This document shows positions 3,207 through 61,576 of a stretch of DNA of 64,000 nucleotides, in pieces. Source of the DNA: Dryococelus australis (Eukaryota; Arthropoda; Insecta; Phasmatodea; Phasmatidae); assembly GCA_029891345.1 (NCBI GenBank), contig CM056993.1, positions 224,573,924-224,637,923 on the forward strand, read 5' to 3'. The first letter of the stretch is position 1; each line of letters begins with the position of its first letter. The notes beneath the pieces were generated by a model. That model saw nothing but the letters and a program-made list of their open reading frames with translations. It did not search any database and was not told the DNA's origin. The translations under genes and the position numbers were made by a program.

Positions 3207-3250
<44 letters not shown>
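3200..3250. repeat. (TA)n microsatellite, right flank of foldback
   Basis: A TA run of about 50 bases immediately outside the right arm of the foldback element, the mirror of the run at 1958-2024. Confidence 0.95.
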
Positions 3251-3256
<6 letters not shown>

Positions 3257-9048: not shown

Positions 9049-10116
9049 GCAAGGCCCCTCTTCACGAACATTCAGGCGCCCTCGTCTGGAGCAAGGGGTC
9101 GAATGTTGCAGGGGATCGGCCGGGTCAGGTCAGGCGATCGGTCCAGGAAACGACGTTGCAACCTTGGGCCTGGTGGAGTCGTGGAGCCCGCGGGAAAGAG
9201 TTTTTGTATAGGCATGGTTTGAATAGGTATATATTTACTCTACGCTGTTTTACACTTTTTAAGATGGATAAGAAAGCACGGCGCTGTTGTCGACTGTTGG
9301 AATTTAAGAGCATTCTCCTACATTCCTCACCTAACGTGTTCGACGTCGTATTTAATGTTACAATTTTCAATTTCTAAGGGGGATATAATTTCAAAGCGGA
9401 GTCGAGCAGTACCTTCCCCATCAGGTTCAATATATATTCATATATATTATATATATATACATATACCTTCACAATGTGGTACGATTTTACATAATTCTGC
9501 GTGACATTCGTACTTACATACATGTTGTTGAAAATACTGGGTATATACATATACGAAATTATTCTAATTTAATAGTCGTATGACCAGAATTACTAATATT
9601 ATTGGGGCCTAGAGCTTATATTATGGCAACTCTCGCAGCACGGCTTTGTAATTTGCTGTCTGGCACATTCTGATGCACGAAAAAGGTACTGTGGCAAGGT
9701 GAGTGCGTAACTGCTGCACTCTACACTTTCTTTGTCGCTCAGAATGTGACTGCTGTTGCAACATTATGGTCAGTGCTTTTAACTTTGCCATATAGGCAGT
9801 GCTGTGTTTCACAATTGTCCATTGCGCTAAAGTATTTTTTGCTCGTCGTTAGCTGCCACACACATACACAAGTGCAACTATCACTTCATTGATACCACAC
9901 TTTCTTCTAAAATTTTACCTCCTAAGCGCCTCGAAGCACCCGAGTATTAAATTCTGTCTCCGGGTATGAACATGCTTTATACATTATATTTTATGTCAAC
10001 ACATTTAAGTACTCTCTGTTACGAATGGCATGAAATATTCCTCGCTTTCTGAACTGCAAAATGGAGGAGTTAACTTCTATCACTGAGCTGCCTGCCTTCG
10101 TAAAAATTGACTAACT
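9049..10116. other. Non-coding 3' part of gypsy-2
   Basis: No gene is visible between the envelope end and the LTR. There is a TA-rich patch at 9429-9465. On the minus strand the sequence next to the LTR is GAAGAGGGGCCTTGC. This contains a short purine run (GAAGAGGGG) that could be a degraded polypurine tract a few bases from the LTR start. Confidence 0.4.
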
Positions 10117-11831: not shown

Positions 11832-12148
11832 TGCGGCATTCCGTTACCTGTAATACACATGATACTGTTAATACCTTATATTAGCAATTTTAATATTTCT
11901 TGTGTTAGCTGTATCTATCTTAGTTAACCCTCGTTTCCTAATTTCCATAGCAACAGTCGATGGATGTATCTGGTACGGGCCGTGATATTTCAGGGTCAGC
12001 ACCTTCTGTCTCGTATGGTTTTTCACCCATACAAATTAATCTATTTTGAAATTCATTTGGTCGAAATTTTCTGTCAAAAAGTTATTTTTGTATTTTTTTG
12101 GATTCGAGTAGGTTCACTCGAACCTGTTCGTGGTCTTGGTGCAATTAC

Positions 12149-13109
12149 TCACACCAGTCCTCTGCACGCTGTGAAAACGTATGGGCGACGACATGACGGC
12201 TGGACTGCCTCAACGCCGTGTGATAGGAAAAACGGGGAGAATTTTGTACTCCTATTTAGAGTAGAATTATAGTTGAAAACTATATATTGGACATATTCGT
12301 CCCAGTGTGTTTGGTCTTCATTGGCGCTTGCTGTGAGTTGCTGCGACAGAACCTTTTTAACCTGTTCGGTCAGCCCGTTACACACTGGGTTATATACTTT
12401 CGTTTGCAGTTTTTTTATTTGAAAATTTTGTAAAAGTTCAGTGATAAGCTCATTGTTGAAGGATGTTCCCCGATAAGTTAAAATGGATTTAGGACACCCG
12501 TATTGCAGAATACATCCTTGATAAACTTTGCATAAGTGTTAGCGTCTATAGATTTTACGGGTTTGGCTACCACATATCGCGTGAAAAATTGTGTCATCAC
12601 TAAGATGTATTTATTTCCCGATGCTGCTGTTTGTAGCAGGCCTTTGCATTCAGACCCCAAGAATGTAATAAGGGAGGGGCTTCAATGGGGGTCATGAGGC
12701 CTACGGGTTTCTGATTACTGTGTTTGACCTGGCACGTAGGGCTGTTTTTTATATATAGTTTTTAATGTCCTTAGCCATGCTGTCCCAATTGTATTGGTTT
12801 TCAATTTTTTTGTAACATTTTAAACTGGCCGAAATGCCCCCCACCTAACAACGTGTCGTGGTGAGCCGTAATAATATCTGGTACATAGTACTGCAGTACT
12901 AGAGTTAGACATTTTCCCCCGTGGTGGGTGTGCACTTTGTAATATATTTCGCAGTTTCCAGTGACGCCATACCGTATTGCTAAACTTATATATTTGGAAG
13001 TTGCATTTTGTGGATCTGTGAAGGCAGTTTTGAGTTGTGAACTGTGAGGAACATTGGCGTATTCCGCTAAAAATGACGACGATTGTACTTGTGTAATTGG
13101 TGTCAGCAA
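12149..13109 (-). pseudogene. Gypsy-2 integrase (broken)
   Basis: The minus-strand frame 13109-12801 ends in YYVPDIITAHHDTLLGGGHF, the H...H half of the HHCC zinc module. 12660-12478 carries the first part of the catalytic core (YILVMTQFFTRYVVAKPVKS, where the family has the first catalytic Asp at the L-V-x-x-D-x-FT position, here not Asp). 12385-12149 holds the end of the core (NGLTEQVKK, HWDEYVQYIVFNYNSTLNRS, STKFSPFFLSHG). The N-G-x-x-E-x-x-N helix and the P-F-x-L-x-x-G motif are typical of gypsy integrases. Stops separate the frames. Confidence 0.85.
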
Positions 13110-13342
13110 TAAGTGTGTATCATATTTGACCTTGATATATTCCTGGTCGTGTATGTCGATGGTGTGATATGCGGTTTGGAATTATTTATCGAAATTACAA
13201 TTTTGCATTGTAAATGCGGGTCGATACACGTTGACTTAATTTTATTTTCATTCCCTTCCATCATGTGTTTAATTTTCCTTTTACTATTTTTGGTTCGAAA
13301 TAATGCTAAGTTAGCGCTATTGCTAAATTTTGGATTCGGGTG

Positions 13343-14330
13343 TTATGTTCGGCCATTGTCTTCAAGTAGCGATGGCTGACGTGGTCTGTTTAGATTGTGA
13401 ATTTTCGTCCATATCGATATTGTTTGAAGTATAGCGCCTATTGCTGTCTGAGACGTGTCGAATGCTAGTATTGTATCTTGGTTCTCCTGAAACTTTGCTA
13501 ATATGGGCGGGCTTAGTAGGGCTGTTTTTAGGTTTCGAATGCTAACTGGTGTTCTTCTTTCCATAAGAATGGGGTTCATTCTTTGATTAATTCGGCAAGG
13601 GTTTAGACTAGTTTGGCATAGCTAAGTATTAACCTTCTTAATACGATGTTAATCCAAAAAATGCACATAACTATTTAAGGTTCTTTGGTGAAGCCATATG
13701 TTTTATTGCCTCGATTTTATCGGGGTCCATGCATATCCCTTCTGATGCTATATAGTGCCCTAATATTTTGATCTCTTGTTCCCCGAAGTGACAGTTTTTG
13801 GTGTTAATTTTTACATTATATTTACGTAATCTATCCATTACTTTTCGAATGTTGTCCATATATTCCTGAAAGTTATTGTCTGTAATAAAGATGTCTTCAA
13901 TATATGCTACTGCTGTGTTCCAATGGAGGGGCCCGACAATAATGTCCACAAGATTTTGAAAATAATTTGGGCTTGTGGTCAACCCCATATGCATACGGGC
14001 GTACTCGTATATTCCTACGCTGTCCACGCTAAAAGCGAGTTTATCTCTGTCTTGCTCCCTTACTGGGTTAGCTTAAAAACCGCTAAAAATATCTACAGAA
14101 GAAATATACTTGGAATTTTGCACTGTGTTAATTATATCTTCGGTTCTGAGGATGGGGTATTGAACCGTTTTTAGATGTTGGTTAAGTAGCCTAAAGTCTG
14201 TTAAGAATATTATGACACCCTAGCGTTTCTTTATTACAAGACTTGGTGTGGCATACGGGGATTCGGAAGGGGTGATTATCTGCGTGTCAAGCATCTGCTG
14301 GATCTGTTCCAGTACTTGTTCACGTAGTTG
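13343..14330 (-). pseudogene. Gypsy-2 reverse transcriptase/RNase H start (broken)
   Basis: Near 14160-14085 the minus strand reads LRTEDIINTVQNSKYISSVD, ending at the first catalytic Asp of the palm. The frame 14027-13671 continues (YEYARMHMGLTTSPNYFQNL) to the active-site box, which reads AVAYIEDIFITDN, so the first Asp of the Y-x-D-D pair is Glu. It then runs through the thumb (KILGHYIASEGICMDPDKIE). 13579-13343 holds the connection and the first RNase H Asp (ILAFDTSQTAIGAIL). A stop lies directly after the first palm Asp region. Substituted catalytic residues and stops show loss of function. Gypsy assignment is firm. Confidence 0.9.
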
Positions 14331-14629
14331 CGGACTTATTCTTTACGGTCTGATATGAATGGGTTTGTCAGTAGTTAATTATAATTTAATCTCATAGTCT
14401 TTCTTTGATGTTAGTTCAGTTATTTTGCTTGCGAAACAGTCTTTGTAAGTATCTAGTACTTCTCTTAATTGTTCTTTCATTTGTGAGGGCAATTTTTGAT
14501 TTATGCTACATGTAGTGGTCGTATCGCTTGGGTTGTAAATATTCAATTTTGTTAATGTAGTATTGAATACAATTATTGGTTTTGTAATACAATTGTTTTG
14601 TATTTATTGGAATTTTAATGACACTCTTT

Positions 14630-15001
14630 TTAATGATACGAGTGTACGTACATTATATCTTTGGTGACTACTGATACTAGGTCATATATTTTAATAAAAT
14701 CTACTCCCAATATAATGTCTAATTTTAAAATGTCAATGAGTAAGAAGTCTAGATTGAAGTTGTACCCCGCTATATTGATGTTGAGATTTGTTTCATATTT
14801 AGGTGGGTCAATGTCTGTCGTAGCGCCAACTAATGAAAACTGTTTCGTAACTGGTTGCTGGTTATGTTTGTTTACAAGAGTTGTGGCTATACAGGAACGC
14901 GAGCATCCTGTGTCAAGAAACGCGCTATATGACCTGCCCGCAAGCAGGACAAGGATGCGCGGCTTTGCCGTTTTACACGTATCTAGCGCGACATTCATCA
15001 T
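14630..15001 (-). pseudogene. Gypsy-2 aspartic protease
   Basis: A 123-codon minus-strand frame contains YSAFLDTGCSRSCIATTLVN, the D-T-G active-site loop of a retroviral-type protease. It then contains FLLIDILKLDIILGVDFIKI, the hydrophobic and L-G-x-D-F segment that follows in gypsy proteases. The domain reads in one frame and is the best preserved pol piece of the element. It overlaps the nucleocapsid frame upstream by about 29 bases in another frame, as seen where pol is reached by frameshifting. Here decay could equally explain the frame change. Confidence 0.8.
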
Positions 15002-15407
15002 TACCAGTTAGCGGGTCCTGTATGTTATTGTGTAGGTAAATGGCTCTGCGGCTCAGTTTCTTCATCATCGACACTTTTTTCGTGTTTGTGTTTTTGCAAA
15101 TATGTTGTGTGCTGTTACTACTAGTTATCAGGATGAGTAATTTTACTTCTGCTAATCCGAAATGTCTTTTGAACTTATTAAATCTGTCGTTTATATTTGT
15201 CTTGAAATACTCTGTTTGATTCGGCTCGATGGCTCGATGACCCTGGTAAAAACACAATGTGCACGTCATGGCATCCAGCAACCACGGTCCGATGAAGGCA
15301 GTAAGTGCACTAATGTCATGATCGCGCTGATGCATGAATTCTGTGGGCCCGACCTCGGCTTGCCCCGCTACTTCCGTGTTGTCTATGGTCTCGGCTTTCA
15401 CGGGCAC
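14973..15407 (-). pseudogene. Gypsy-2 gag C-terminal/nucleocapsid region
   Basis: A 144-codon minus-strand frame lies between the gag-like frames and protease. It contains CTLCFYQGHRAIEP, which keeps C-X2-C-X4-H of a retroviral zinc knuckle but lacks the final Cys. The rest is Lys/Asn-rich and not recognisable. Its position supports nucleocapsid. Confidence 0.5.
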
Positions 15408-15419
15408 CGTGTTATGGTG

Positions 15420-16842
15420 TCATGATGCAGTGTCCTTGTGTAGGGTGTCGGGATTCCCCTGTTTGTTCTGTGACCTGCAATTTGGTTCTTTGAAGGTGAT
15501 ACCTGACGACCTAGTATTTGGCAACCTTTTTGTAATTTGAATTTTCTGTTCCTGAGGTTGTTGAAAATTTACTGGTAGTGAGTTGAATTTGGTAATTTCC
15601 ACGTATGAACGCGTCGGAATCCTATTATTGAAAAGCTCCTCACAAGCGTTAGTTGCACGCCTGATTTTTGTTTCTGGTTTCACGTCTACCCTTGCCTTAC
15701 TTTGTTTTCTACTTTTGCCATTTTTACTTCTGGTTATGATATTATGACTTCTGCCATTAAGTTGGGGTGGTTTCTTTTAGCTGTAATGCGATTTTTTGTA
15801 AATACCATTTCCTCTACTTAAAGCCCCTGCCTATTTCTGATGGTAATATTTAGTTTGTGGCACCTTACTTATCGATTTGTCTGCGGGGGTGGAGCTTACC
15901 TTATGTAAGAGTTTTTTTGTTCAATATATTTAGGTGTTGAATAGTACTTTGTTCTTGTTTGCATGTGATTTTGGGCATTATTGTTTTGTGGGTGATATAT
16001 CTGGAAGTTGTTCGTTTTCTGAAAATTTCCGTTCTTTGGCGTTCTTTTGTTGTTTTGATGGGTGTCGAAAAATTTTGATTGCTTTTGGACGTATTCTTTG
16101 ACAATGATCACTGGTTGTTTGTAACACCCATATTTATTGTATTTTACGTACTGTGGGTTCTGTGTGTTGTGTCGTCTTTGTTGGTTTCTGTTGTTAAAGG
16201 GCTTTTGATTTTGGAGCGTGAAGTTTACAATTTCCTCCTTCAATTTTACCATTTCGGCCCTCAGAGAATCTGTTTTTGCATGGCTATGTTGGCCTGGAAT
16301 TGTTTGATTGTACTGGAACAATCCTACCTCTAATCTTTGTATGTTTGTAAGGAGGTCGTGTAAAATGTGTAATTTTTAAGACCTACTATCTTGTCCGCGA
16401 TGGACAGAAGTAGTGATCGCCACACAATAATGACTAATTCGGTGTATGTGACCATGGGGTTGTACTTTCGTCTGTAGAACAATAGGATTTCAATATTTGT
16501 TAGAGCACTTTCGTGCAGTTTTTGTTTTGTAGTGTATAGGAGATTCCTCAAGTGTTCTTCTTTGGCAGGTGTCAGGAAAGGTTTTTTCATTTTAGAAATT
16601 GTGTCATTCCATGTGAATTGTCCCGCATGACTCTGTAAATAATACTCCAATGTGTGCTTGGCTGGACCTATGAGATAATATTTCAGTCTGCGGAATTTTT
16701 CAGTGTCATCCCAGTTGTTATTTTCGGTCGCATTGTTGTATTGTTCCAGGAGTTCTGGCCATTTGTTACTACCATCGCCCGAAAATTTATTCACTGTCAT
16801 GCGATGTTGAACTGTTGCATTAATTGGTGGTAGGTTAACCAT
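15420..16842 (-). pseudogene. Gypsy-2 gag (broken)
   Basis: The frame 16842-16330 (170 codons, starting MVNLPPINATVQHRM) resembles a gypsy gag capsid domain. It has a SGDGSNKWPELLEQY segment, a KYYLIGPAKHTLEYYLQSHA segment and a Trp-containing helix (FTWNDTISKMKKPFL). The following frames at 16321-15896 and 15683-15420 are rich in Asn, Gln, Thr and Lys, as in gag linkers before the nucleocapsid. The ATG at 16842 is a plausible gag start because the capsid-like homology begins soon after it. Stops at 16330 and beyond break the gene. Confidence 0.65.
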
Positions 16843-19175
16843 GTTGTTTTCTTGTCTGTCTGTATTGGTGAGGCCAAAGGTGAGTTCTGAAATGTGTGTT
16901 CAGTGGTGAGTTCGTGTAAGTTTGAATATCCGTGTTCTGTTGTAGTGTCAATTTTTACTGGTGTTAAATAATATGTGTCTTGTTGTTCAATATTTTCATG
17001 TGAGGGTGGGGGTGTCGATGGCAGAAGGCCTCAATGTGTTATTTCTCTAATGAGGCTAAGAGTTAGACGTGTTGATGTTGTGTCAAATTTTTCTACTATG
17101 TCAGGGTTCTCTGTTAATAATTTTTCTGTAGACGCTATGAGTTGCTGGAATTTTTCTGTACTTGGTGTGATTTGATTTTGAAATATGTTTTGAGATTATG
17201 TTAAATAAATAGTTACATGTTTTAATATATTCCTGGCAGTCTTGGCAAGAGAGGTAGTGGGTTTATCTGTCATGTATTGTGTTTGTATTTAGCATGTGTA
17301 GCATGTGTGATACAATACTTAACACTAAAGCAAGATTTCTGCTATCTACTATTTCAACATTTGCCACACCATTGTGAAAATGTTCAATAAGCGAATGTTA
17401 AAGTACCGTCTGAAGAGTGGATCCATGTTTTAAACATGCATTCATTTCTTTAAGCAAGGCACACACACTTGACGTGTGCCCCCGTTGACACCTTCTCCTT
17501 AGTCCGTTTGCCTGCCACACCAGGTTCCGTAACATAGTGTGTGTGCGTGCTCTACGAGCGCAAGTGCAGTGCAGTGTGACAAGGAACGACACAGGTGTAG
17601 ATCAGAGTGGGCGTGACCATATGCGCGTGGCGCAGGAATCCGAAAGTAGACCTTGTGAGATTTCTGTTATTTAATTTGTGTAATAAAAGGGCAATGTAAG
17701 TTCACGCAAGAGGACACAACTAACAAAGACACCTGCCTTCGCAGTCCTAAATACGCCAGTGTTTTCAAAGTGTCTTTTTGTAATTTTCTGTAATGTTAAT
17801 TCATGTGACTTTCATCTCCACATAATTCATGCAGTGCAATGTTTTGTTATAATGAATAATATTTACAGGGTTAATTTTAGGAGCAACATGTAACAACTGG
17901 CACACAGGTTATGTGTCCGATTTGCAAATGTTGTGTGCCAGGAAGTAGTGCAGCGTGGGGTGCAAGCTCGCCAAGTCGGCCAGCACGCCACATGGAGAAA
18001 GTCAGTAGTCGATCGTCTTTGCAAGGATGTGCCACGGTCATATCGGGGCTCGTGTTTCGCGCGCTCGGGCACCCATTACTATGTTGGACTAATCATTTCA
18101 CAGTAATAGTTATTTTAGAATACCGGAACCTTTTCGTACTCAGCTGCCCGAGACTCCACCACCCTTCGCCCCTACCCAGTGCTTGCATCGCCTGGGTAGG
18201 CTTAAATTGTACTAAGTTATTTCATGTGACTACGTGTCTTTTGCATAGTATTACCCGATATGACGGGTTCGTAAGCAGCACCCAATGTAAGCTTTTCCCA
18301 ATCATGTAGTGAATATATCGCAATAGTGACGAGTTACCAAGTGTGGTTTATTTCCAGTTCGCCGCAAGGCATTTAAGGCACGGGCCTTATCCCGCCAATT
18401 TTCTGAAAGTGTAACTTACTGTGCAAGTATGACTGAAATGGTCACGAGTCGGCATAATAAGTTACAGTGCTTCGTATGGGCGTTTGGGGAGTCCAGATAT
18501 CCCACAATGCAACAAGTAAGTGAGTTATTCAGTCAGTATTTATTTTATTTTACGAGGAGACAACAACTGCACTTGGAGGCTTTGTTGTGGTCGTCGGCCG
18601 AATGACCCTGAGGAACGAGTGCACAAATGCTCTCCGACTTCACGATATTGTCAACCCAGCAATATCTGGCGTCCTGGGTAATTATCTCCACCGAGATTCC
18701 AAAACTATTTTCACCGCTCTTCACCTAACAAATATATTTATTGAACAACACCTTGGCACTAGTTGCAAGCCTCCGACACCTTGACCAACGTCAAAGGGCC
18801 TGCCCGAACTTCTGGCAGATCTCTACTGCTATTCTGACACCTTGACTAACGTCATACTATTCTAGAGCATAAATTGGGCTACTGTCCAGCCTGGTAGGTC
18901 TTTGTAACGTGGCACTTCATGCCCCCGTGCTCTGGTGCGACCGCGATTAATGTGCTGACTGACACAACATGCACTACCGTGAATGAGAGCTTACAATTCT
19001 TTTCAACATTTACTACTTCGGATACGTTGACCCTTTCTATTGGAGGGAATTTAAACCCTGAAGGCAAATAGACGGCGCTTCTCCTTATTACGCGTATCTC
19101 TACTTGATGTTTGCAAATTTAATTGAATTTTACTTTAAGGGGAGGGTGGGAGAGCCGAGCACCTCCACCTTTTGC
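16843..19175. other. Long leader of gypsy-2, or an unresolved insertion
   Basis: No convincing gene is seen in these 2.3 kb. The stretch 17400-18500 is less AT-rich than its surroundings and may be part of another element. A sequence at 17628-17644 looks like the 3' end of a tRNA on the minus strand (plus-strand TGGCGCAGGAATCCGAA). As a primer-binding site it would point the wrong way for gypsy-2. A purine-rich run lies at 19138-19157. Confidence 0.4.
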
Positions 19176-19747
19176 TGTGACCTCTCCTTAGGGAGCAGGC
19201 CACACATTAACTAAGGGGAACAGGGGTAGTTCAAAGGAAAAGTATTCGGATACAAAATACTACGTTTATTAAATACCAAAATTACAATCTCGCATCAACT
19301 AGCCTTCTCAATCAATGATCTGCTCCTACATTCAATCAACAATTAACAAGTAATCTCGATGGTTAACGTCTCACAATGGGGCGCTTATGCCCTTAATCTC
19401 TCTCAAAGTATAGTAATGTTAAACTAAGGCAAACTCTGCTCAGAGGGAGCTTAATGCCGTCAGAAGTCCCATACCATATTGCACCTTATGTCTCCCTACC
19501 AGGGAGCTCTCGTCGGGCATAGAAGGCGCGGTCCTCTGGTCTAGGCGTCCTTGAGTAGAGCCTCTGGCAGCGGCAGGCAAGATGGCTCCCAGAGCCTCCA
19601 TTGCTCTGAGCTTCTATAGTACCATCTTGACCTCGTGCTCGATCCCCCGGTATATGTTGTTTGAAACAATGGCTCGGCTGGCCGAGGTTGCTCTGCGCCT
19701 TGCCTCAGTGCGATGCTGAGCAACCCTTGCAGGTGCCAGCCGCCACA
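19176..19747 (-). repeat. LTR copy 2, 572 bp
   Basis: Same family as 8466-9048: starts TGTGACCTC and ends CCAGCCGCCACA. On the minus strand it has a TATAGAAG box at 19618-19611 and AATAAA at 19270-19265. It is the likely 5' LTR of gypsy-2. Several short indels separate it from copy 1. The bases just inside it on the minus strand (GCAAAAGGTGGAGGTGCTCG) do not form a primer-binding site I recognise. Confidence 0.75.
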
Positions 19748-30440: not shown

Positions 30441-30770
30441 TGTAGAAGGAAAGTGGAATAGAATTTGCATGTCAGGTGTTCTTAAACACACTCTGTGTTC
30501 CAACATCATGTTTTTGTGCTAACAGCACTATCAACACTAACATGTGTATAATTTGAAGATAATCCACTTTTGATGTAATTAATATGTTTGAAACATTGTT
30601 ACACATCGTCTAGCCTAGTTTAAAGGCAATGTACTACACTATATGTGGAAGTATATTATTGTTATGTACTAGGATAGGCAATTTGAGAAGTGAGCATGTT
30701 GAGAGTGACAGTAGTGTTGGCACTGGGCGAGGCAGAAGACAGCAGGTAAGGTGAAGTGTATGGGTTACAG

Positions 30771-31062
30771 GCACTGTTCGAGCTGGAGCTGGCTGGCTGT
30801 AACGAGGTGACGGAGGCCGGGCTGTGGGCCTGCCTCACGCCGCGCATAGTCTCACTCACGCTCACTGACTGCATCAACGTGGCAGACGAGGCGGTGGGTG
30901 CCGTTGCGCAGCTGTTGCCCTCACTCTACGAGTTCTCGCTGCAGGCGTACCACGTCACTGACGCTGCGCTTGGCTACTTCTCGCCCAAGCAGAGCAACTC
31001 GCTCAGCATCCTGCGACTTCAGTCCTGCTGGGAGCTTACCAACCACGGCGTAGTCAATATCG
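30771..31062 (+). CDS. FBXL16: FBXL16 internal exon (leucine-rich repeats)
   Basis: A GC-rich 292-base exon with an AG acceptor (TGGGTTACAG, ending 30770) and a GTGAGT donor starting at 31063. It reads in phase 0 and ends in phase 1. The frame is open throughout and contains [41 protein letters not shown] and [15 protein letters not shown]. These match the leucine-rich repeats of F-box/LRR protein 16 as I know it from vertebrates and insects. Each repeat shows the L-x-x-C-x-x-(I/V)-T-x-x-G pattern. F-box LRR proteins are normally substrate adaptors of SCF ubiquitin ligases, although FBXL16 itself has been reported to behave atypically. No neighbouring exon is seen, so the adjacent introns are probably longer than 30 kb on both sides. 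No defects are visible. This is the only confident host gene part in the window. Confidence 0.93.
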
Positions 31063-31489
31063 GTGAGTATCCATCCTCATTACCTCACACTTCTCTGTCT
31101 TCATACTTCTGTAGCCTACTACATACATGTGTGTTTCCTAGGAGTGGGCTTCTTTCTCTCACGTCTTTATGAGGAACTCATTGCCCTTTTTTTTTTTAAG
31201 GAATATTGAAATATTTTATTATTAAATGGTAACAGATGTATAAATGTATTTATATTGGAATGTCATTGCATTTTGCCCATTCCTTGTTGTTACAACAACA
31301 TACAGCAATGGAAAAACTACATAGTGAGAAACGAAATTAGTTTTCTATTGTACTCACAGAAAACCGTTATAAATACGATAAAACAAAATTTTATTTTCGA
31401 GAATAGATGTGTAAATATATATGTATAATAGGTCATTAAAATCGAAAGTGGACAAAAAGTTATAAGCAGTAATATACCCTCTATTAACT
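31063..31489. other. Start of FBXL16 intron
   Basis: Intronic sequence following the GTGAGT donor, increasingly AT-rich. No further feature is seen. Confidence 0.6.
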
Positions 31490-45544: not shown

Positions 45545-45952
45545 ATTTATTAATTTAGAATTGTGGTCTTTGAGATTTATTTACTATTCTGGAATTTCAT
45601 CATGCCTATAAGCATTCTGGTCTGTATGAGAAGTTCTGAGGAATACCGAATTTGATTTTTCCACTGCGTCAGGGCAAACTTGACCTTTATTTGATTCATT
45701 TTACTTTTCAAATTCGTATTTTACCGAGATTTTTATCAATATTTTAGGAAATAATGCAAAATGTGGTCTTATTTAATATCGAATTTTTGCACAACGTTTA
45801 AGTATATATCACTATTTTAAACTTTCAAATCAAAAACCTTTCCGGAGGGAAAACCTCTAGACCCACTATTATGTGTCATTCGGCGATTATATATCTTCGT
45901 GCACACTCTAAAGACGAGTTTTGCTCAAGTCTATGTCCCAATGATTCTATGA

Positions 45953-46520
45953 ATTTCGTACTTGAAAGCTACATCGCAACACATATATGATGTCAGATCG
46001 TCTGTGCCTACACTATTATATGCTTCCTACATGGCAAGTTTGCTGGGGCAGAGAAGCAATTGTTGGCCATATACTGAGTTGCCCTAACCCTGCAGTGCTT
46101 GCGTAGCATTTAAACTATTAACGTGCAAGTACGTCACGACTAGTAGTAGAATTGGACCGACTCTGGAGCAGCAGGATCCAGGATCGGAGCCGAAGTCAGT
46201 CAGTCACCATTTTGGAATTCCCTTTTTCGCTCAAAATTTCCCTTTTTTTAACTCAAAAACGACTAAAATAGCATAAAAATTTCCCGTTTTGCCTAAAAAA
46301 AAAAGTTTCCTTTTACCCTTAAAATATCTAAAAATTTCCCCTTTTCCCAGAGCAGGCGAGGGGTACTTATGACCTAGGGTCAGGGATCAGCGACCTAGAT
46401 GATGTGGATCAGTGACCCAGGGGTCAGGAGAGTAGAACCTTTGACCTTGGTCTTTGACCTTTGGCCTTGGAATTTCAAAAACAAAATATTAATTTCAAAA
46501 TTCACAAAAAATTCCCAATA
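45953..46520 (+). repeat. Inverted repeat arm L (partner at 53350-53890)
   Basis: From TTTCGTACTTGAAAGCTACA through AACGTGCAAGTACGTC, GGCGAGGGGTACTTATGACC, GTGACCCAGGGGTCAGGAGA and into the A-rich end, the segment is matched in inverted orientation by 53890 down to 53350. The arms are diverged with indels but co-linear over about 500 bases. They are 6.8 kb apart. They could be the ends of one large element or two independent copies of a repeat. Confidence 0.75.
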
Positions 46521-46734
46521 ATCCGAAAAAAAAACAAAAAAAAAAATGAAATTTAACTGTTAAAACACATCTAAACATTATTGAAAACTATTTTAAGATC
46601 TCATATTTTATTAAAACTTCAATTTCTGAAGGGTCCCCCACCCCAGTACCATGCCCAGCAGATGACTGACTTCCTCACCCCTATTCCCCTCTGCTATACT
46701 CATTCCGCCATGTTAACTTTTTGTTGATGTGTTT

Positions 46735-47684: not shown

Positions 47685-48400
47685 GAGTAATTCCCAATGT
47701 TGTTGACTATCGAGCAAAGATCTAAGTCTGTCTTCAAGTTTGTTGGGATTTTCGGTAAAAATATGGTCAGTGTACTCGACCTCTTCTGCCTACTTCACAT
47801 TACTTGTCGAAGGAAACTCGTTAGTGAAATGTTTGGGGACGTCGAAGGAATCATCACCATCATCACTGCCAATACTGTCGTCATAGTCATCATCAATACT
47901 GTCTTCATGATCTTCACTTCCTGCTTCACCCTCAATATCAAGTCTACTTTTCTGTGTAGCAGGAGTGGTATGTTCGTCAGTATTTAGAACTGATGGTCGT
48001 TTATATTGAAGTTCGTCGACTTCACGCGGACATCTTGCAAGTATCTGTTCCGCACAAACCGACTGTCCTGCACTCAGTCCATCTCTAGCACTAACTGTCT
48101 CGTCATAACCGTCTGCGGAAACAGTACCTATCGATGCAGCAGGAGGTATTGATTATATCACCTGCGGAATCCCAGTAGACGAACGCTTGCAAATCTGACA
48201 TTCTTTCTTCATTGTATCATCTTGCAAAAGCTACGTGTGGCCATTGTCGTAATGCTTAATCCCGCGAAAAGGTCTCTTCGTGCATGCCATTCTCTCATGT
48301 CGTCTAGAATTTGACCATTGGTGAACATTCGATAGCAGAGACTACACTGGAGGCAACCAGATAGTGATGATACAGATCATAGTTCTATGTTAGTTGAGTT
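47685..48400 (-). pseudogene. Unnamed C2HC zinc-finger protein family, copy 1
   Basis: On the minus strand near 48345-48270 a finger is readable with one frame change: CSLCYRMFTN, then SNSRRHERMACTKRPF. This gives C-X2-C-X12-H-X4-C. Downstream come KHYDNGHT, then MKKECQICKRSSTGIP, then an acidic Asp/Glu tract (EDHEDSIDDDYDDS) with SFDVPKHFTNEFPSTSN. A Leu/Arg-rich end follows (NPNKLEDRLRSLLDSQQ), stopping near 47690. The same order of blocks is seen at 56721-57605 and 59099-60200, which supports one protein of about 240-290 residues. Its function is unknown. The finger and basic ends would suit DNA or RNA binding. Stops and the frame change make this copy inactive. Confidence 0.6.
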
Positions 48401-53349: not shown

Positions 53350-53890
53350 GGGCCTTGGATCCTTTTGGGATTTTTTGGAATTTTTTGCGAATTATTTATT
53401 AATTTTTTAATTTTTTAATTTTTTCATTTCCAAGGCTAATGGTCAAAGATCAATGTCAAAGGTCATAGGCTCTCCTCTCCTGACCCCTGGGTCACTGATC
53501 CCTGTCACCTGGGTCGATGATCCCTGACCCTGGACCACAAGTACCCCTCGCCTGATTTGGAAAAAATGGAAATTTTTAGGAAGTTGTAGGAGAAAAGGGG
53601 GATTTTTTTTTTTTTGGGTATTATAGTCGATTTTGGAAGTAAAAAGGGAAACTTTGAGAGAAAACTGAAAATTCCAACATGCTGCTTCAGAGTCAGTCAT
53701 ATCCTACTACTTGCACGTTAATAGCTGAAATGATAAGCCAGTACTACAGGGTTAGGTGAACTCAGTGTCATGCCAACAATTGCTCCCCTGTCCCCAGTAA
53801 ACTTGCCGGATAGGAAGAGTATAATAGCGCAGGCACAGACGATCTGACACGATGCATGTGTTGCGATGTTGATTTCAAGTACGAAATACA
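53350..53890 (-). repeat. Inverted repeat arm R (partner at 45953-46520)
   Basis: Reads inverted relative to arm L. Shared phrases include TCCTGACCCCTGGGTCACTG, AGTACCCCTCGCC, TTGCACGTTAATAG and the outer edge TTTCAAGTACGAAATACA. Spacing between shared phrases is kept apart from small indels. Confidence 0.75.
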
Positions 53891-54270
53891 TGCATGCTTA
53901 GCCTGACATCCTTGATAAAATGTTTATGTGATTTATCAGTTAAAATGTTAGCCTATGCAGATAACAATTAATGACATCATTCTTTGGAAGCATGCGGGAA
54001 CTTGTCAGTCATTCACAACACAGTTTGTACATCTGACGAGATTCACTTATATCACCTCGGGGTAAAATACACAGATAAATGAAAATGTGTTAATGGAATG
54101 AAAATGGACTTTGGTAGAGAGCGGGTTCTGTTAGGGAGAGAACGTGGTTACGCAAGTGTGCATGGAGTTGTAATTTTTACAACGTAGATATTATGCAAGT
54201 TTTCGAATAATCATTGCAAGTGTGTACATAGTCTTTGGGTGAAGAGTCAAGATGATTTTTGTTCTATAAT

Positions 54271-54589: not shown

Positions 54590-55380
54590 GATGAAAACCT
54601 TTACCTCGCACTTGCCCCGCCCCTCAACTAAACCAACAAAAAAATCGGAAAACTAATTCTAAATATCGTGAAACATATAATGGCACCTCACAATACCCTT
54701 CCGCTCATCTCACCCCCCTTCCCAACCCAACACCACTACCAACACACCCACCCCTAACGGTAAACACTCCCAATCATAATATATTGACAAAATTCACCAA
54801 AAATCGAAAGAAACTAATAAATGTCTAGGACCATATGACATCACTGACTTCAACACTGAAGTTGTATGTTGGTTACCTTGACCATATCCTAGTGCTCAAG
54901 TCCTTAAAGGACTGTGAAAAGAAAAAAAATTAAAGAATCGCAAATATTAAAACCAATTTATAAAAATCTAAAAAATTATATTAGCTTACCCTACCCCTCG
55001 CCCACCCCACCAAAGCCCAACCAAAGCCCCATACCCACATCCACCCCTCCCCACTATAAAAATCGAGAAAAAACGAAAAATTGGAAAAATTGATTTGAAA
55101 AAATGTAAGAACATATAACGTTAACCTCGCACACATCCCACCACCCTCGTGTCATCCCCTCATCAACCCTCCTCCCGAATCATAAAAATTATCGAGAAAA
55201 ATCGCAAAAATGCCAAAAATCTAAAAATCGAGCGACATATAACGCTAACTTTTCACTCAACTCACTGACCTACCCTATACCACTTAACCAACCCCACACA
55301 CTCCCCAGTCATAAAAATCTAGAAAACAGTTCTAAAAATTGAAATAGATTAACAAAAAGGTAGGCTCAGACAACTATGTT
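54590..55380. repeat. Degenerate tandem repeat, period about 120-180 bp
   Basis: Units consist of a C-rich part (CACCCC/ACCCTCC) followed by ATAAAAATCGAGAAAA-like A-rich sequence and AACATATAACG. They are seen from about 54600, 54950, 55110 and 55245. A TGACCTTGACC/ATGTTGG module is interspersed (54870, 55380-55460, 55500-55550). Strand asymmetry is strong: the plus strand is almost free of G for long stretches. No coding content. Confidence 0.65.
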
Positions 55381-56699
55381 GGATAGAATTCATAAGACTC
55401 TCTGAACATATGTTGCTGACTCCGACCACCATGCTGGCTGTTGGTGATCTTGACCTTGGCCTCTATGTTTTTAGATACTAAAAATAAAAAAAAATATGTT
55501 AAAAATCGACGAATATAATCTGTTACTGTCTCCGACCACAATGTTAAATGTTGGCAGCCATAAACTTAACCCAAATTACCCTTATCTCGAAAAATCAAGA
55601 AAACATACAGGAAAAAATACAAAAATGTAAATAATTACAAGCATAATAATAAAAAAAAAACCAAACTGGCTGTGTGTGATCCCAAAGTTAGATTCTGGTA
55701 AATATGGCAGAGAGCAGCAACTTCCTAGTACGACAATTAGCACCTGACTGAACCCCCAACTCTGTATTTCATTGGCTATAAAGTCAAGCAAGCTTACATC
55801 GTCCAAAGTGAATTATTGACTTTATGTAGAACACATAACACCCCCTCCCTCCACCAATTCTCTCTCTGCATCATTCAACACTCCTCATGGTGGTCCATTT
55901 GTTTTGCCATTCGCTTAACATAGCTGAGCTACCATCATCAACATTTACACATGCCACCAATCCTTCTGTTGGTTCCTCCTCACCAACCCTTAACAAATAA
56001 CACACCTTAGCTCCTCCCTCCACCATCTACTAACCCCACGATTCTCCGCACCCTTTCTTTTCCCATAAACAAAAACCCAACCATTTCCAGAAGAGACTGA
56101 CTCAACCCAAGACTGCGTCCTGTCAAGACCAATTCCTGCATAAATTGCTAGAGCAGTGTCAAGACCCACCGACCAGACCACCCACCTATTCCAACAGTCG
56201 ATGACAACCAATCTCGAAAAAGTCACCTAATAGGAATATTGGCGCTATCCTCTTCGCACAAAAACTTCGCATAATCTTCGCAATACTTTGCAAATCTTCA
56301 CAGCATTTTCCAGCCAGAGCTGGCCATAGCAAAGTGTCATACCAAATGACCAGGCCTACTAAACAGTTGCGAAACATTCCTCAGAAATATTACCAAGTTC
56401 ATTTGTTTGCCTTATAGAACTCAAGCAAATTAAATGGACCCGAATAAGGCATAATACTTTAGATCCAAAATAGGTCTCCTCCTGCACACACATGCATAAT
56501 TTTGATCTAAAACAGACTCTCGCAATCGATTGTACACATCACTGAATTAATAGGTCTTTCAGAGAAGCAGAATGGACTGAATAAGAAATAAAATTACATT
56601 ATATGTATATATAATAATTTTTTTATTAAGTATATACATTCTATCACTGTAATTATTCCGTACTTTCAATCTTTATAAACAAATCAAATGTTTACATAT
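55381..56699. other. C-rich, gene-free stretch
   Basis: Low in G on the plus strand up to about 56200, with CCTCCCTCCACC-type phrases, then AT-rich. Minus-strand frames here (56226-55990, 56377-56186) show no recognisable motif. Confidence 0.4.
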
Positions 56700-56720
56700 C
56701 TAGGTTTGTAGCCAACAGTC

Positions 56721-57605
56721 TCAACTTATATAATTCCGATCCTTCAGTCCATTAATGATGGAAGATATCTCGTTAATGCGTTCGAAATCTCCATCTTATT
56801 GCAAAGCGATTAAATGTCTGAGTCTATCAACACGTTCATTCAGGTCTTCGGTAAACATGTAATCCTCATTAACAGCATCTTCAGTCTTCTCCATTTCGCT
56901 GTTTGCAGCAAATTAACGAGCGTTCTCGACGCCTTCTCTCATTTTCACACCACTTGTCGAAGGAAACCCGTTGGTTAAATTTGTGGGAATGTCGAAAGAA
57001 TCATCCTTCTCATGAGATACCTCATCAATACTGTCTTCATAGTCATTACCAGCAATGCTTTCTTCATGATCGTCTTCCTCCTGTTTCATCCTCAATATAA
57101 AGTTTACTTTCTTTTGCAGGAGTCGCATGATCAACAGCAGTAGTTCGAGCCGACAACCGTTTGTTTTGAATTTCGTCGACTTTACGCGAAAGTGTTGCAA
57201 GTGTACATCGCACACAAACAGACTCTACTGCACTCATTCCGTCTTAAGAATTAACTGCCTCTTCATTATCGCCTGATGAAGCACCTTCATTATCGCCACC
57301 GATGCAGCATTGGGCAATGGCAACATCGCTTTCTGGATCCCAGTAGACGAACACTTGCAGATCTCAATGTGTTCTTTCCATATATCGCCCTGCATAAACT
57401 GCACAGTACCAATGTCGTATTGATTCACCGCGAGAAAAGGACTCTTTGTTCAGGCGGTTCTCTCATGTTACCGAGAATGATAGTTTTTTCTGAAGATCTT
57501 TCCACGGTAGCAACCCTACTTTACACATAATTTTCCAGAAGTGGTAGAAGGTACATGCATAGAGGTAAGCTCCATAGTAGACTTCTTACAATTGTTAGCT
57601 TCCAT
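56721..57605 (-). pseudogene. Unnamed C2HC zinc-finger protein family, copy 2 (left arm)
   Basis: The minus strand starts ATG at 57605 (MEANNCKKSTMELTSMHVPS). It then has a damaged finger (CYRGKIF... HERTA, second and last Cys lost and a stop inside), VQFMQGDIWKEHIEICKCSS, an acidic tract (EDDHEESIAGNDYEDSIDE) with IPTNLTNGFPSTSGVKM, and the tail EDLNERVDRLRHLIALQ, ending in TGA at 56721-56723. The start is chosen because the arm-to-arm similarity keeps an ATG at the matching site (59099/59102) in copy 3. Stops occur at several places. Copy 2 preserves the N- and C-terminal ends best. Confidence 0.65.
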
Positions 57606-57672
57606 GTTATCCACGAAAAACTGACGTTCTTTCTACACTAGCAAACTGTGTACCTACTTCGCCAAGCTACTG

Positions 57673-57674
<2 letters not shown>

Positions 57675-57720
<46 letters not shown>
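57675..57720. repeat. (TA)n microsatellite in left palindrome arm
   Basis: A TA run of about 46 bases. The mirror position in the right arm (58990-59033) holds a short TA run and then (GA)n. Confidence 0.95.
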
Positions 57721-57725
<5 letters not shown>

Positions 57726-58989
57726 TACTAACATATTCCCTCAGTGCAATTTAAGTATTTTCGTGCGTCCAATCAACGAGACAATTTGTCTAGTTTTTTT
57801 ATTACAATACCATTCAGTTATATCCTCAACAGTTTTTTTAAGACCAGCTCTTTGCTCCGTTTGAACTCATGCTCTGCAAATGATCGATCCTGCTCTGCAA
57901 ATGCCCATAAATGACCACTCCTGCTCCGTAAATTACACCCAAATTACCCCTTAATAACTTATAAATGACCCCAAAATGCCCCTCAAAATAACCCCCAAAT
58001 GACTCTTAATGAAACCTTTTGCTGTGCAAATGACCTCTTCTGAACCAAAAATGACCCATCATGCTATGCAAATGACCCCTCATACTCTAAAAATAGCCAC
58101 TCCTGCTTCGCAAATGACCTCTTCTGCTCCCCAAATGATCCCTCGTGTTCTGCAAACAGCCCTCTCCTTCTCCAAAAATGACCCCTAATGACTCCTACAT
58201 GAACCCTAAATGAACCTTAAGTGACCCGTAAATGACTCCAAAATTACCTCTAAATGACTTATTGTCGTGCATGTGGTGCTAATGGCAGTGCTAAGTGTGG
58301 TGGCAAGTGCAGTGCTAAATGTGGTGCTAAGTGCGGTGCATAAGGGGTCAGTTGCGACACATGAGAGGTCCCTTAGGAGTCGTTTAGGGTTCATGTAGGA
58401 GTCATTAGGGGTTATTTTTAGACCAGGAGGGGGCTATTTGCTGTGCATGAAGGATAATTTTCAGAGCAAAAAGGGTCATTTTCGGGCCGTAAGGGGTCAT
58501 TTGGGGAGCAGAAGAGATCATTGAGGGGTCATTTTCGGTGCAGAAGTGGTAATTTATGGAACAGGAGGGATTTAGGGAGCAGGAGGGTTCATTTGCAGAG
58601 CAGAAGGTTTTTTTTTTTGCGGATCAGGAGAGATCATTTGTGAAGCAGGAGGGGTCACTTGCGGAACAGAAGGGGTCATTTGCAAAACTGGAATGGTCAT
58701 TAAGGTAATTTGGGGATCATTTAGGAATCATTTAGGGGTCTATCAGAAGACATTTAGGTGTACTTTAGGTGTCATATGCGGAGCACAAGCGGTCATTTAG
58801 GGGGCATTTGCGGAGAAGGATGGGTAATTTTCAGAGCATGGGTTCAAACTGAGCAAAGAACTTGTCTTCAAGAAACTTTTGAAGATGTAACACTGACTGG
58901 TATTGTGATCAAGGAACTAAATTACATGTCTTGTTGAAAGGATGCATAAAAATTATTAAATCCCACTGATGAAATATGTTAGTAAGTTT
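57721..58989. repeat. Palindrome core built of a minisatellite of about 24 bp
   Basis: From 57860 to 58260 the plus strand repeats GCAAATGACCCCTCCTGCTC-like units. From 58370 to 58850 it repeats their reverse complement (GGGGTCATTTGCGGAGCAG). The centre (58270-58345) is a separate short tandem of GTGGTGCTAAGTGCAGTGCTAA. The outer 140 bases of each half (57721-57860 and 58850-58989) are single-copy and pair with each other. No coding content. Confidence 0.9.
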
Positions 58990-58999
58990 ATATATATAT

Positions 59000-59003
<4 letters not shown>

Positions 59004-59034
<31 letters not shown>
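59004..59034. repeat. (GA)n microsatellite in right palindrome arm
   Basis: A GA run of about 30 bases at the site that mirrors the left-arm TA run. Confidence 0.95.
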
Positions 59035-59035
<1 letters not shown>

Positions 59036-59098
59036 AGTAGCTAGGCAAAGTAGATACACAATTTGCTACTGTAGAAAGAAATCAGTTTTTTCATTAAA

Positions 59099-60200
59099 AT
59101 GATGCAAGCTAATGATTTTATAGGCCGTTCACGGCAAAGGGAGCACTTTTTAAGGTCCTTATAAATTTTTCCTTTCATCAACTTCCCATCTTCCTGCTGC
59201 TTTTTAATATAACCATTGCAGAGTGACCAATAAACAAAGTGTATACATTTCACCATCATCAAATTTAATGCCTGAGGCTGCAATAAGATATATTTATTAG
59301 CGGTTAATGCCTGTTGGGAGGGCCTTAAAAAGTGTTCACTTTATCGTGAACAGCCTATACGAAGTATTTTTTTTAGATCTTACCTCTATGGACGTACCTT
59401 CTCCCACTACTGGAGAATTCCATATACAACAGTGTTGCTACTGTGGAAAGATCTTCTGCAACAGCTATCATTCTCGGTGACATGAGAGAACTGCTTGTAC
59501 GAAGAATCCTTTTCTCGCGATAAGGCATTGCTATATTAGTACCGTGCAGTTTATGCACGGAGATACATTCAAGGAACACATTGAGATCTGTAAGGGTTCG
59601 TCTACTGGGAGCCAGCAAGTGATGTTGCCAATGCCCCATGCTGCATCAGTGGGTACTGATTCGTCAGGCGATAATGATGAAACTGTTAATGCTAAAGATG
59701 GAATGAGTGTAGCGGAGTCTGTTTGAATGGAATGCACACTTTGTATGGAATGTAGACTTGCAAGACTTTCGCGTGAAGTCGACGAACTTCAAAATTTATG
59801 GTTGTTGTATTTAAATACTGATGAAGACCATGCGACCCCTACAAAAGAAAGCAAACATATTGAGAATGAAACAGGAGGTGAGAACGATTATGAAGACATC
59901 ATTGATGATAATGATTTTGAAGACAGTGTTAATGAAGTATCTAATGAGAAGGATGGTGGTTCTCTCAACGTTCCCACACATTTCACCAACGAGTTTCCTT
60001 CGACAAGTTATGTGAAAATGGTAGAAGGCGCGAGAACTCTCGTTAACTTGCTGCAACGAGTTAAATGAAGAAGGCAGAAGATGCAGATAATACTAACTAC
60101 ATGTTTATCGAAGACCCGAATGAACTTGTTGATAGACTAAGACATTTGATTGCTTAGCAAAAAGATGGAGAGTTTTCCTACATTAACTAGATATCTTCAT
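59099..60200 (+). pseudogene. Unnamed C2HC zinc-finger protein family, copy 3 (right arm)
   Basis: Begins at ATG 59099/59102 (MQAND) and is split by the MITE at 59121-59357. The frame resumes with TSMDVPSPTTGE. Near 59430 the finger CCYCGKIFCNSYHSR continues, after a TGA where the consensus has Arg, as HERTACTKNPF: C-X2-C-X12-H-X4-C. Then come VQFMHGDTFKEHIEICKGSS, a stop, CTLCMECRLARLSREVDELQ, an acidic tract (ENDYEDIIDDNDFEDSVNE) with FTNEFPSTSYVKMVEGA, and the tail DPNELVDRLRHLIA at about 60110-60160. Similarity to copy 2 fades near 60230. Several stops and the insertion show that it is dead. Confidence 0.65.
59121..59357. mobile_element. MITE, 237 bp, with TA target duplication
   Basis: Ends TAGGCCGTTCACGG and, inverted, TAGGCTGTTCACGA. 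The TIRs continue through CACTTTTTAAGG for about 35 bases. TA flanks both sides (59119-59120, 59358-59359), as for Tc1/mariner-type insertions. The uninterrupted left arm of the palindrome shows the empty site. No complete transposase is present. Confidence 0.85.
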
Positions 60201-60230
60201 TATATGTATTACACAGAGGAATGTGTAGTA

Positions 60231-61576
60231 ACTGTAACTTCACCACAATTTCCGTAACTTTATGAGAAGATTATGTGGTCAATTTTTTTGTTCATCAAAA
60301 TTTGCTTTAGGTTTACGGAATAATAAATATACAAAACTGACAGAACTATAGACATCAACTAATTATTTGGCTAATGATATTAGTACTATAATCGGATCAC
60401 GACTACAGGGCGGTATTTTTCATCTCGCCGTGAGCCGTGTATGTGTGAATAATATGTTCTGGAGAAAATTATTCAAAACCTAAATGTCAAATAAACGTAA
60501 GTTTTATTTTAATTGAAAATTGTATATTGATACAGTAGCTAAGTTGTTAGCTATGGTGGCGTGAATTATTTATACATATTGCGCGACCTAAAATCTGAAT
60601 CATGTAAGAGTAATTTATAAATAAAACTATAGAACTCAATTGAGATAGTTACAGAGCAAATTTCGACATTTGACAAGGTCAGTAAAAGATCTTGTTATAT
60701 ATCGCGCATTCCCATGGCTCTGGCTTCCACGCTAGCCAGAAAGCGAACACGTATGCAGACGGAATATTCCTGGCCCGGAGCCAAGAAGGCGATCGATTGG
60801 GCAATATCACGCTAAGGTTGCCTTGACCCCAAGCAAACCTCGCAATAATTTTTCACACAGGTCAACATAGTCCCAAATTATTCATGTTGACCATTTAAGA
60901 CCGATTTGCAGCATTATGTATATTAGTACTCTAATTATTTTACGAATTTTTTTCATTATGAATGCATGTATAATAGTGTCGGGCTCTGTACCAAGACTTA
61001 TATTTCTCTACCGAGACATACACCCCTGTTCGAATGATAATAATTCTCACGATAATAACTGTATGCGTTATATTCCTTGGCGAAAGGTTAGGTTTTGTGA
61101 GCCGAGCTGTAGAGAAGATGAGGTGTGTGGATGTAGATATGTGTGTGAGACATGAGGTGCAGGGCAGGTTCCCTTCGCTGTCAGGCCGCCCCCACAGCAG
61201 CTGTGTGGTGCAGGGGCACTGCGGCCTAACTTACAGTCGATCGATCGATCCACGCTCAAGTCGACCAGCACCGCGCCACCGCTGTTTTACCCGGCCAGCG
61301 TGGGTAGTATCACACAGTAACTTGCATTCTCTCTCCTCGAGTAGTTGTGAACAGAATGTGTATACAACACTTTGTGTCTGCATACACAGTAAGGCGTGGC
61401 ATTAGTGGAACATTATTTTAGCGACTGTATTTCTAAATTAATATCTTTATAAATTCTTTTTCTCGTATTTGGCTAAATTACAGAACCTCATAACTCCATA
61501 TGAGGGACATAATAGGGTACTAACTAAAGGAAAATAGTAGAGATAAGCTATTCTATCAGCAGAAAAACAGTCAAAA
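60231..61576. other. Region without a recognisable gene
   Basis: AT-rich except 61080-61410, which is GC-richer and includes ATCGATCGATC and C-rich phrases. The frames there have no recognisable motif. It may be part of an unidentified LTR or a host exon, but I cannot support either. Confidence 0.4.

Follow-up and report, generated by a model that had tools for sequence, protein, structure and literature searches.

A 3.4-kb palindrome in the genome of the Lord Howe Island stick insect, Dryococelus australis, in which two copies of a repeat lie head-to-head, raises the question of whether such a structure is the unit of a mobile element, a local inverted duplication, or a form taken repeatedly by an otherwise single-armed repeat. 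It was analyzed within a stretch of 64,000 nucleotides of contig CM056993.1 (positions 224,573,924 to 224,637,923), hereafter called the window, and all coordinates given without a locus name are positions in this window.

Architecture of the Palindrome

Self-comparison of the window yielded a single palindrome, confirming the original prediction that the gene arms, the collar, and the minisatellite core form one inverted structure. The outer arms, 56761–57572 and 60198–59376, aligned with 78.7% identity over 835 columns, and the inner block 57587–59120 paired with itself (57587–58236 with 58475–59120; 69.0% over 1575 columns), the E value being printed as 0.0 in both cases. From left to right, the left gene copy (56708–57623, minus strand) is followed by a (TA)24 microsatellite (57674–57721), the left collar (57722–57872, which agrees with the right collar in 120 of 151 columns), the left minisatellite made of 11/21-bp units (57873–58258), and a central tandem array of 12-bp units, the hinge (58259–58345). 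The right half comprises the inverted minisatellite (58346–58835), the right collar (58836–58990), a short TA run (from 58991) leading into (GA)15 at 59004–59033, the 5′ block (59034–59125, plus strand), which mirrors 57587–57673, a MITE (59126–59357), and the right gene copy (59358–60198, plus strand). No collar or core match was found in the window beyond the palindrome.

The mirror centre calculated from the coordinates of the 5′ block and collar (58353.5–58355) agrees with the predicted common centre near 58355. The centre of the innermost minisatellite lies at about 58296.5, and that of the outer arms, at about 58474–58479.5, is shifted because the right arm holds the MITE of about 232 bp. 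This MITE, bordered by TA when the sequence is read by eye, has no counterpart in the left arm; near-full-length relatives occur in four other repeat copies (L021, L022, L023, and L025), and L019 contains a 39-nt match. As had been claimed, the arms diverged independently, with private indels, different microsatellites at the mirror site, and the MITE on one side only.

Divergence between the arms is about 17–20%. In the first of four settings, it was 17% in the gene, 19% in the 5′ block, 20% in the collar, and 19% in the core, and the outer part did not differ significantly from the collar or core under any of the four (p 0.07–0.58). The idea of an inner foldback predating the gene arms was thus rejected. 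The raw identity of differently cut local alignments drops inward (82.7, 77.8, 76.6, and 73.7%), which would leave room for a somewhat older core.

The Arms Are Copies of a Dispersed Repeat

Both arms belong to a dispersed repeat of high copy number, as expected for the element-like repeat that had been proposed: a first look gave 6037 candidates genome-wide, and the non-self matches among the 40 that were scored are 76–82% identical, a range that also applies to the left gene copy. In the window, a third, older, single gene copy (47689–48400, minus strand) is 69–70% identical to both arms and differs by 31–35% from all 18 other copies compared. A total of 1.56 Gb of D. australis repeats is reported as unclassified in the part of the genome study cited here (PMC10268593), and the family may be one of these unnamed repeats. 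No description of it was found among the titles and opening lines of abstracts that were surveyed.

The 16 best other copies were fetched, with 9 kb each, and inspected for a second arm. The collar was present in 14 and a similar minisatellite in 13 (only 49 nt in L016), but an inverted second gene arm in none.

The outer ends of the palindrome were compared with these 16 copies by blastn. On the left, matches pass outward of 56684 in 14 copies (all except L024 and L026) and reach 54.6–54.8 kb in nine, with 60–72% identity there, in repeat-rich sequence; coverage from other copies reaches zero about 2.5 kb outward of 57100. The left family unit, with its 3′ region and repeat-rich tail (54637–56707, minus strand, outer limit approximate) lying outside the palindrome, extends beyond the limits first assigned to it. 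On the right, matches end at 60189–60235 in all 16 copies. The window arms therefore have unlike ends, at about 54.6 kb on the left and near 60.2 kb on the right, and constant outer termini were not found in the window. Outside 56761 and 60198, the similarity between the flanks is not significant (p 0.10). A candidate relative of the 3′ flank, located at 39.5 kb, was discarded, being AT-rich and without an adjoining gene match. A 12-bp direct match, CATTATATGTAT, occurs at 56597 and 60198, two places that do not mirror each other. Of 500 shuffles, 5 gave a match of this length, as did 21 of 1933 random window pairs; the search at the window palindrome brought no convincing target-site duplication. 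Together with the lack of an inverted second arm in the best copies, these ends do not support the palindrome as the element's unit.

Decay of the Former Gene

The majority frame of the family is open over 316 codons, and 18 close copies carry between zero and eight stops each, with seven family-frame stops in the left arm and six in the right. Because the majority frame is open while individual copies carry stops, both arms look dead, and, judged from sequence, the two "genes" look like dead copies rather than a working gene pair; the present structure is probably without coding function. Differences between the arms are flat by codon position (17.0, 17.1, and 18.7%). The dN/dS between the right arm and the third copy, 0.59 (0.37–0.92), lies below 1, which is what a founder lineage under selection would produce, and counts against the explanation favoured below. 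One codon is stopped in both arms (TAA at 57470, TGA at 59478), whereas most stops are private to one arm. That the gene was broken before duplication was considered from this shared stop and dropped, as, among 16 other copies, the same codon reads TGA in six, CGA in nine, and CAA in one.

An unnamed zinc-finger gene had been predicted on each arm. The gene copies are there, although they look dead, and the zinc finger consists of a C2H2/C2HC-like spacing seen by eye that did not reach the Pfam cut-off. The best Pfam result, obtained when a piece of the third copy was joined by hand, was sub-threshold (E 4.2e-4, 20.7 bits against a cut-off of 27); neither the arm pieces nor a 249-aa family ORF matched any family, and no C2H2/C2HC profile exceeded its curated cut-off in any of these queries. 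Protein searches with right-arm pieces gave no match at the limits set, and another protein search matched three proteins, all named Dryococelus australis. The best of four PDB sequences (E up to 1), LIC10831, with 3.7e-5 over 35 residues, was judged to be a chance match. A viral origin was rejected: its two matches, at 32% identity, were likewise put down to chance, and exact patterns had no match in the genome and viral contigs. No relative was found in the genome contigs by protein-alignment search, and neither Rfam families nor tRNAs were detected across the window.

Palindromes at Other Loci and Kinship of the Arms

The original prediction had called for a search for further palindromic copies, and one was found. 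On another chromosome, C17, locus L039 (around C17:81129300–81131100) is one palindrome spanning 99–3688 within a fetched stretch of 3701 bases. It contains both gene arms and a hinge like that of the window, and it runs to both edges of this stretch. Collars in opposite orientation were found near each other at 4 of the 39 other places that best matched the palindromic query, a proportion biased upward because the places were the best for such a query; besides L039, these are three places known by their coordinates only, C10:3083563–3084933, C2:170567483–170568437, and C7:108388150–108388936. For comparison, with 6037 copies in 3.415 Gb, each copy would be expected to have about 0.005 neighbours within 1.5 kb, which makes about 0.2 for 39 places, whatever the orientation. 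The palindrome is thus a form that a mobile-type repeat has taken more than once, and not a one-off accident. A single local inverted duplication, which was to be preferred if all other copies were single and unrelated to a palindrome, is overturned by the C17 locus, even though most sampled places do hold single copies.

The two window arms share 10 exclusive states, compared with a mean of 1.57 and with five in the next-highest pair. When the second palindrome was added, 9 and 12 exclusive states were shared within loci and 0–2 across them. The arms group within each locus (UFBoot 94 and 100), and the AU test rejected cross-locus pairings (p 9e-8 and 0.002). The private branch common to the window arms is short (0.016–0.018), and the raw distance from arm to partner (0.200) falls within that from arm to single copies (0.176–0.21). 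By tree and exclusive shared states, but not by raw distance, the window arms thus appear to be each other's closest relatives with 16 single copies sampled.

Origin of the Palindromes

The best explanation, to which we give about an even chance, is that fold-back duplication in the region of the minisatellite and hinge repeatedly converted a gene-bearing repeat into palindromes, either during its insertion or shortly afterwards. In the founder repeat, a protein gene of some 300 codons would have been preceded by the minisatellite and followed by a repeat-rich tail. One inserted copy would then have become a head-to-head palindrome, the turn lying in the minisatellite or the 12-bp hinge array and possibly arising when copying at the hinge primed itself or switched template. 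Palindromes would have formed separately at each locus, and both halves would afterwards have decayed largely neutrally. A fold-back or hairpin step has likewise been proposed for inverted duplications in humans and yeast (PMC3907307, PMC7467729), but the cases described in the parts of those reports cited here are copy-number variants and gross rearrangements, whereas here a dispersed repeat takes the form at more than one locus. Three subjects usually treated separately meet here: a high-copy repeat that once had its own gene, the growth of a minisatellite at the end of this repeat, and the recurrent formation of palindromes at that place.

An inherited foldback-type element, in which one founder palindrome spread as a palindrome and, with every move, gene conversion or hairpin copying homogenised its arms, is possible but doubtful; single-armed copies would then be deleted palindromes or the ancestral form. 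The hinge array is oriented alike at the centre of the window palindrome, at that of L039, and in L013, which also has an inverted outer-flank partner (3–1018 with 4358–3335, 69%), and a clade of all four palindromic arms was not rejected (AU 0.244). These observations agree with such an element, but the grouping of arms within loci, the absence of an inverted second gene arm in the 9 kb of each of the 16 best copies, the unlike ends, and the lack of a clear target-site duplication argue against it. Likeness between loci to the right of the hinge was also not significant (44 and 23 of 500 shuffles as good). The hinge score exceeded all 30 shuffles in three of the 16 fetched copies (L013, L021, and L023), and L021 and L023 have the hinge with no second arm seen; this, like the result to the right of the hinge, also weighs against the favoured fold-back explanation.

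The architecture itself resembles Tetris and Foldback. In Tetris of Drosophila virilis (PMC4079207), long inverted arms likewise combine an outer domain that is unique with tandem repeats further in, and they flank a small middle; no transposase was found in the copies covered by the cited part of that report. The Tetris copies described there have target-site duplications of 8–10 bp and no conserved ORF, whereas here the arms hold a former gene, no convincing duplication was seen, and most sampled copies are single-armed. Galileo also has very long, internally repetitive inverted arms, but is classified, in the parts of the reports cited, by a P-superfamily transposase (PMC3688188, PMC3573991), and no transposase or other enzyme was detected here in a Pfam search covering the family ORF. 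Long inverted repeats with internal tandem repeats and an inverted form at more than one locus are foldback-transposon features; with constant ends, target-site duplications, and an enzyme not found, membership in an FB/Galileo/Tetris-like group is unproven.

It is unlikely, though conceivable, that the mobile repeat arises in palindromic form, when an intermediate that is single-stranded or nicked folds at the 12-bp hinge array and copies its own arm. Each palindromic insertion would then begin with two identical outward-reading genes, and single-armed copies would be insertions without fold-back or with one arm lost. If palindromes are made at birth, the family would amount to a large set of natural experiments, open to dating, on how foldbacks are gained and lost, one other having been read and three being known by coordinates.

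Two independent insertions of one young subfamily that landed head-to-head seem quite unlikely. The star-like tree, the short private branch, and the raw distances would suit them if the insertions were near-simultaneous. So would parts of the minisatellite: compared in stretches of 60 nt, it is closest to its mirror partner in only 6 of 17 windows on the left and 8 of 22 on the right, and other copies are closer elsewhere. However, the innermost minisatellite is best matched by its mirror partner (53/60 versus 39), its right part matching the left half at 58435 in 51 of 60 positions against 40 for the best of 16 other copies. The exclusive states shared by the arms, and the recurrence of opposite collars well above the number of neighbours expected, also argue against this origin.

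A hairpin-RNA locus producing small RNAs against the gene family is highly improbable. As in the Drosophila hpRNA loci described in the cited part of PMC10317233, inverted copies of a multi-copy gene could form a long hairpin, and the folding energy of the inner 452 nt is −222.4 kcal/mol on the plus strand (z −14.5) and −189.6 on the minus strand (z −10.8). Unlike those loci, the arms show no sign of maintained pairing: plus-strand mismatches have no G-U bias (63 G-U, 74 A-C, p 0.39), the arms have diverged by 17–20%, and only two perfect runs of at least 21 nt occur, both outside the gene.

Finally, although the assembly was built from PacBio continuous long reads (PMC10268593) and fold-back read artefacts have been described (PMC12870357), as stated in the parts of these reports cited here, the chance of an artefact is negligible because the arms have diverged. 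The private indels, the one-arm MITE, and the second locus likewise argue against an artefact, and the structure is old, as predicted.

Architecture of the Palindrome

Self-alignment bore out the inverted structure originally predicted at 56700..60230, since both arms and the core paired in an imperfect palindrome (56761-57572 with 60198-59376, and 57587-59120 with itself). The order from the outside inwards was gene copy, 5' block, microsatellite, single-copy collar, minisatellite (11- and 21-bp units, in both halves, between collar and hinge), and a central hinge of 12-bp units at ~58259-58345. The MITE, predicted to sit in one arm only, was indeed restricted to the right arm (59126-59357, with TA on both sides), and near-full-length relatives of it were found in four of the 16 family loci fetched from elsewhere in the genome (L021, L022, L023, and L025). 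Under the first of four settings, divergence between the arms was 17% for the gene, 19% for both the 5' block and the core, and 20% for the collar. In none of the four settings was the divergence of the outer part significantly different from that of the collar or core (p 0.07-0.58). Arm identity dropped inward (82.7, 77.8, 76.6, and 73.7%), these being raw values from differently cut local alignments.

The Arms Belong to a Dispersed Repeat Family

The query 56700-57700 gave 6037 first-look candidates in the D. australis genome (3.42 Gb, scaffold N50 262.27 Mb, as given in an excerpt of PMC10268593). Forty candidates were scored and 41 matches listed, including the self match; among those listed, the 40 non-self matches were 76-82% identical and spread over many chromosomes. 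A protein search matched three hypothetical proteins, all from Dryococelus australis.

The 16 best other copies were fetched with ~6.5 kb of inward flank, and 12 of these also with outward flank. The collar was present in 14 of the 16 and the minisatellite in 13, with merely 49 nt in one of the latter. Left-arm homology extended outward beyond 56684 in 14/16 copies, and as far as 54.6-54.8 kb in nine, whereas right-arm homology ended at 60189-60235 in all 16. This unequal reach indicates that the window holds a long unit (~54.6-58.3 kb) facing, in head-to-head orientation, a shortened one (58.35-60.2 kb). The sequence upstream of the minisatellite was of one type in L011, L015, and L022 (partly L012) and of another in L021, L023, and L026, which suggests two or more types of head within the family. 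An older copy of the arm gene (47689-48400, minus strand) was solitary and 31-35% different from the 18 other copies compared; it is enclosed by an inverted pair of ~600 bp (45949-46529 and 53363-53891, 70.8%).

Among 18 close copies (the 16 fetched and both window arms), the majority frame was open for 316 codons, with a single stop in the whole frame, while individual copies carried 0-8 stops each and many indels. Arm-to-arm differences were flat across codon positions. The dN/dS of one arm against the other was 0.64 (0.40-1.10); for the right arm against the older solitary copy it was 0.59 (0.37-0.92). These results indicate that the family founder very likely encoded a protein of ~300 residues, and that the present copies decayed under little or no constraint, the genes now looking dead. 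A 249-aa ORF from one family copy had no Pfam match. The original label of zinc finger reflects a resemblance in residue spacing, by our own reading; profile hits were all sub-threshold.

The palindrome is probably now functionless. RNA pairing of the inner core was strong on both strands, and the outer core, one of the four segments in which + strand mismatches between the arms were counted, leaned to A-C (p 0.013). The balance of arm mismatches on the + strand (63 G-U versus 74 A-C, p 0.39) gave no sign of selection for hairpin RNA from that strand.

Recurrence of the Palindrome

A collar-core-collar stretch was used as genome query; 40 of 1624 candidates were scored and 119 matches listed, of which 44, reaching well into the right collar, were kept, corresponding to 40 places with the window among them. 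The remaining 75 rows were set aside; they comprised the mirror match of the window itself, duplicate left-collar rows, and matches to the minisatellite, including one that ends 2-3 nt inside the collar. Oppositely oriented collars were found at 4 of the 39 other places, with spans of 0.8-1.7 kb, a rate biased upward since these places were the top scorers for a palindromic query. Three of the four are known by coordinates alone; the fourth, L039 (C17:81128300-81132000), was read as sequence and forms one palindrome from 99 to 3688 (74.5%, 3680 columns) that carries both gene arms and both collars and reaches both edges of the fetched stretch. The search yielded a second palindrome, on chromosome C17, and the window palindrome is not unique in the genome.

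Among the 16 fetched copies, the palindrome is not the rule, a second inverted gene arm being absent from the 9 kb of every one. L025 had a 137-nt gene fragment further out, in the same orientation as the gene, L013 had its outer flank, without the gene, repeated in inverted orientation, and L026 had an inverted scrap of minisatellite. Separate self-palindromes were observed inward of four single copies (oriented coordinates: L016, 3620-4663; L017, 5506-5841; L018, 3582-3889; L019, 2844-3468), the longest with 1052 columns at 78.5%.

Origin of the Palindromes

In a tree of the window arms, the C17 arms, and the 16 single copies, the arms of each locus were sisters (UFBoot 94-95 for the window, 100 for C17), with shared branches of 0.016-0.018 and 0.024, respectively, and own end branches of 0.08-0.13. 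Exclusive shared states numbered 12 for the C17 pair, nine for the window pair (10 without the C17 arms in the set), and five for the next best pair, versus 0, 1, 0, and 2 for the four cross-locus pairs. AU tests rejected both cross-locus arm pairings (p 8.9e-8 and 0.002).

At the centre, the innermost left minisatellite matched its mirror partner at 53/60, versus 39 for the best other copy; the mirror partner was the best match in 6/17 left and 8/22 right minisatellite windows, other copies being better in the rest. The window hinge was 75% identical to that of L039 over 84 columns. In the same orientation, it scored 52.5 against L039 (shuffle maximum 26.5) and 43.5 against L013 (shuffle maximum 25.0). 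Reversed alignments also scored high (42.5 and 38.5, respectively), in our view because the minisatellites on either side mirror each other. Likeness just right of the hinge was not significant (44 and 23 of 500 shuffles equally good). These alignments demonstrate a hinge common to the window, L039, and L013, but not a common junction.

The within-locus grouping of arms, the common hinge region, the similar age across the palindrome, and the predominance of single copies in the sample are most simply accounted for by fold-back in place: a single unit would have folded back and been copied, at insertion or soon after, separately at each locus. Raw distances count against this reading, since the 0.200 that separates the window arms falls within the range of their distances from several single copies (0.176-0.21), owing to the long end branches. 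A possible alternative is a subfamily that is itself palindromic, with conversion keeping its arms alike; a clade of all four palindromic arms was not rejected by the AU test (p 0.244). Formation of inverted duplications by fold-back is reported in human and yeast (PMC3907307, PMC7467729).

The nearest architectural parallel to the palindrome lies in foldback elements, among them Tetris of Drosophila virilis, for which an excerpt of PMC4079207 gives arms of up to 1,735 bp, a flanking domain of up to 866 bp, and inner tandem repeats. Of the features that define foldback elements, no constant ends, no convincing target-site duplication and, in the 249-aa family ORF, no enzyme domain were found, and the palindrome is therefore not filed as one; it resembles a foldback element in look and possibly in working.

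Other Features of the Window

Direct repeats of ~585 bp (87.5%) at 8462-19741 bracket minus-strand ORFs, one of which matches RVT_1 (E 1.4e-13) and another, weakly, a gag profile (E 0.039, under the profile cut-off); this is a putative LTR-type element. The ORF at 30750-31169 has the look of a leucine-rich F-box gene exon; Pfam gave no hit of that kind. A further foldback was observed at 1958-3249, with inverted arms identical at 384/464 aligned bases and both ends marked by (TA)n, reminiscent of the TA-microsatellite-targeting elements described in PMC4486113.
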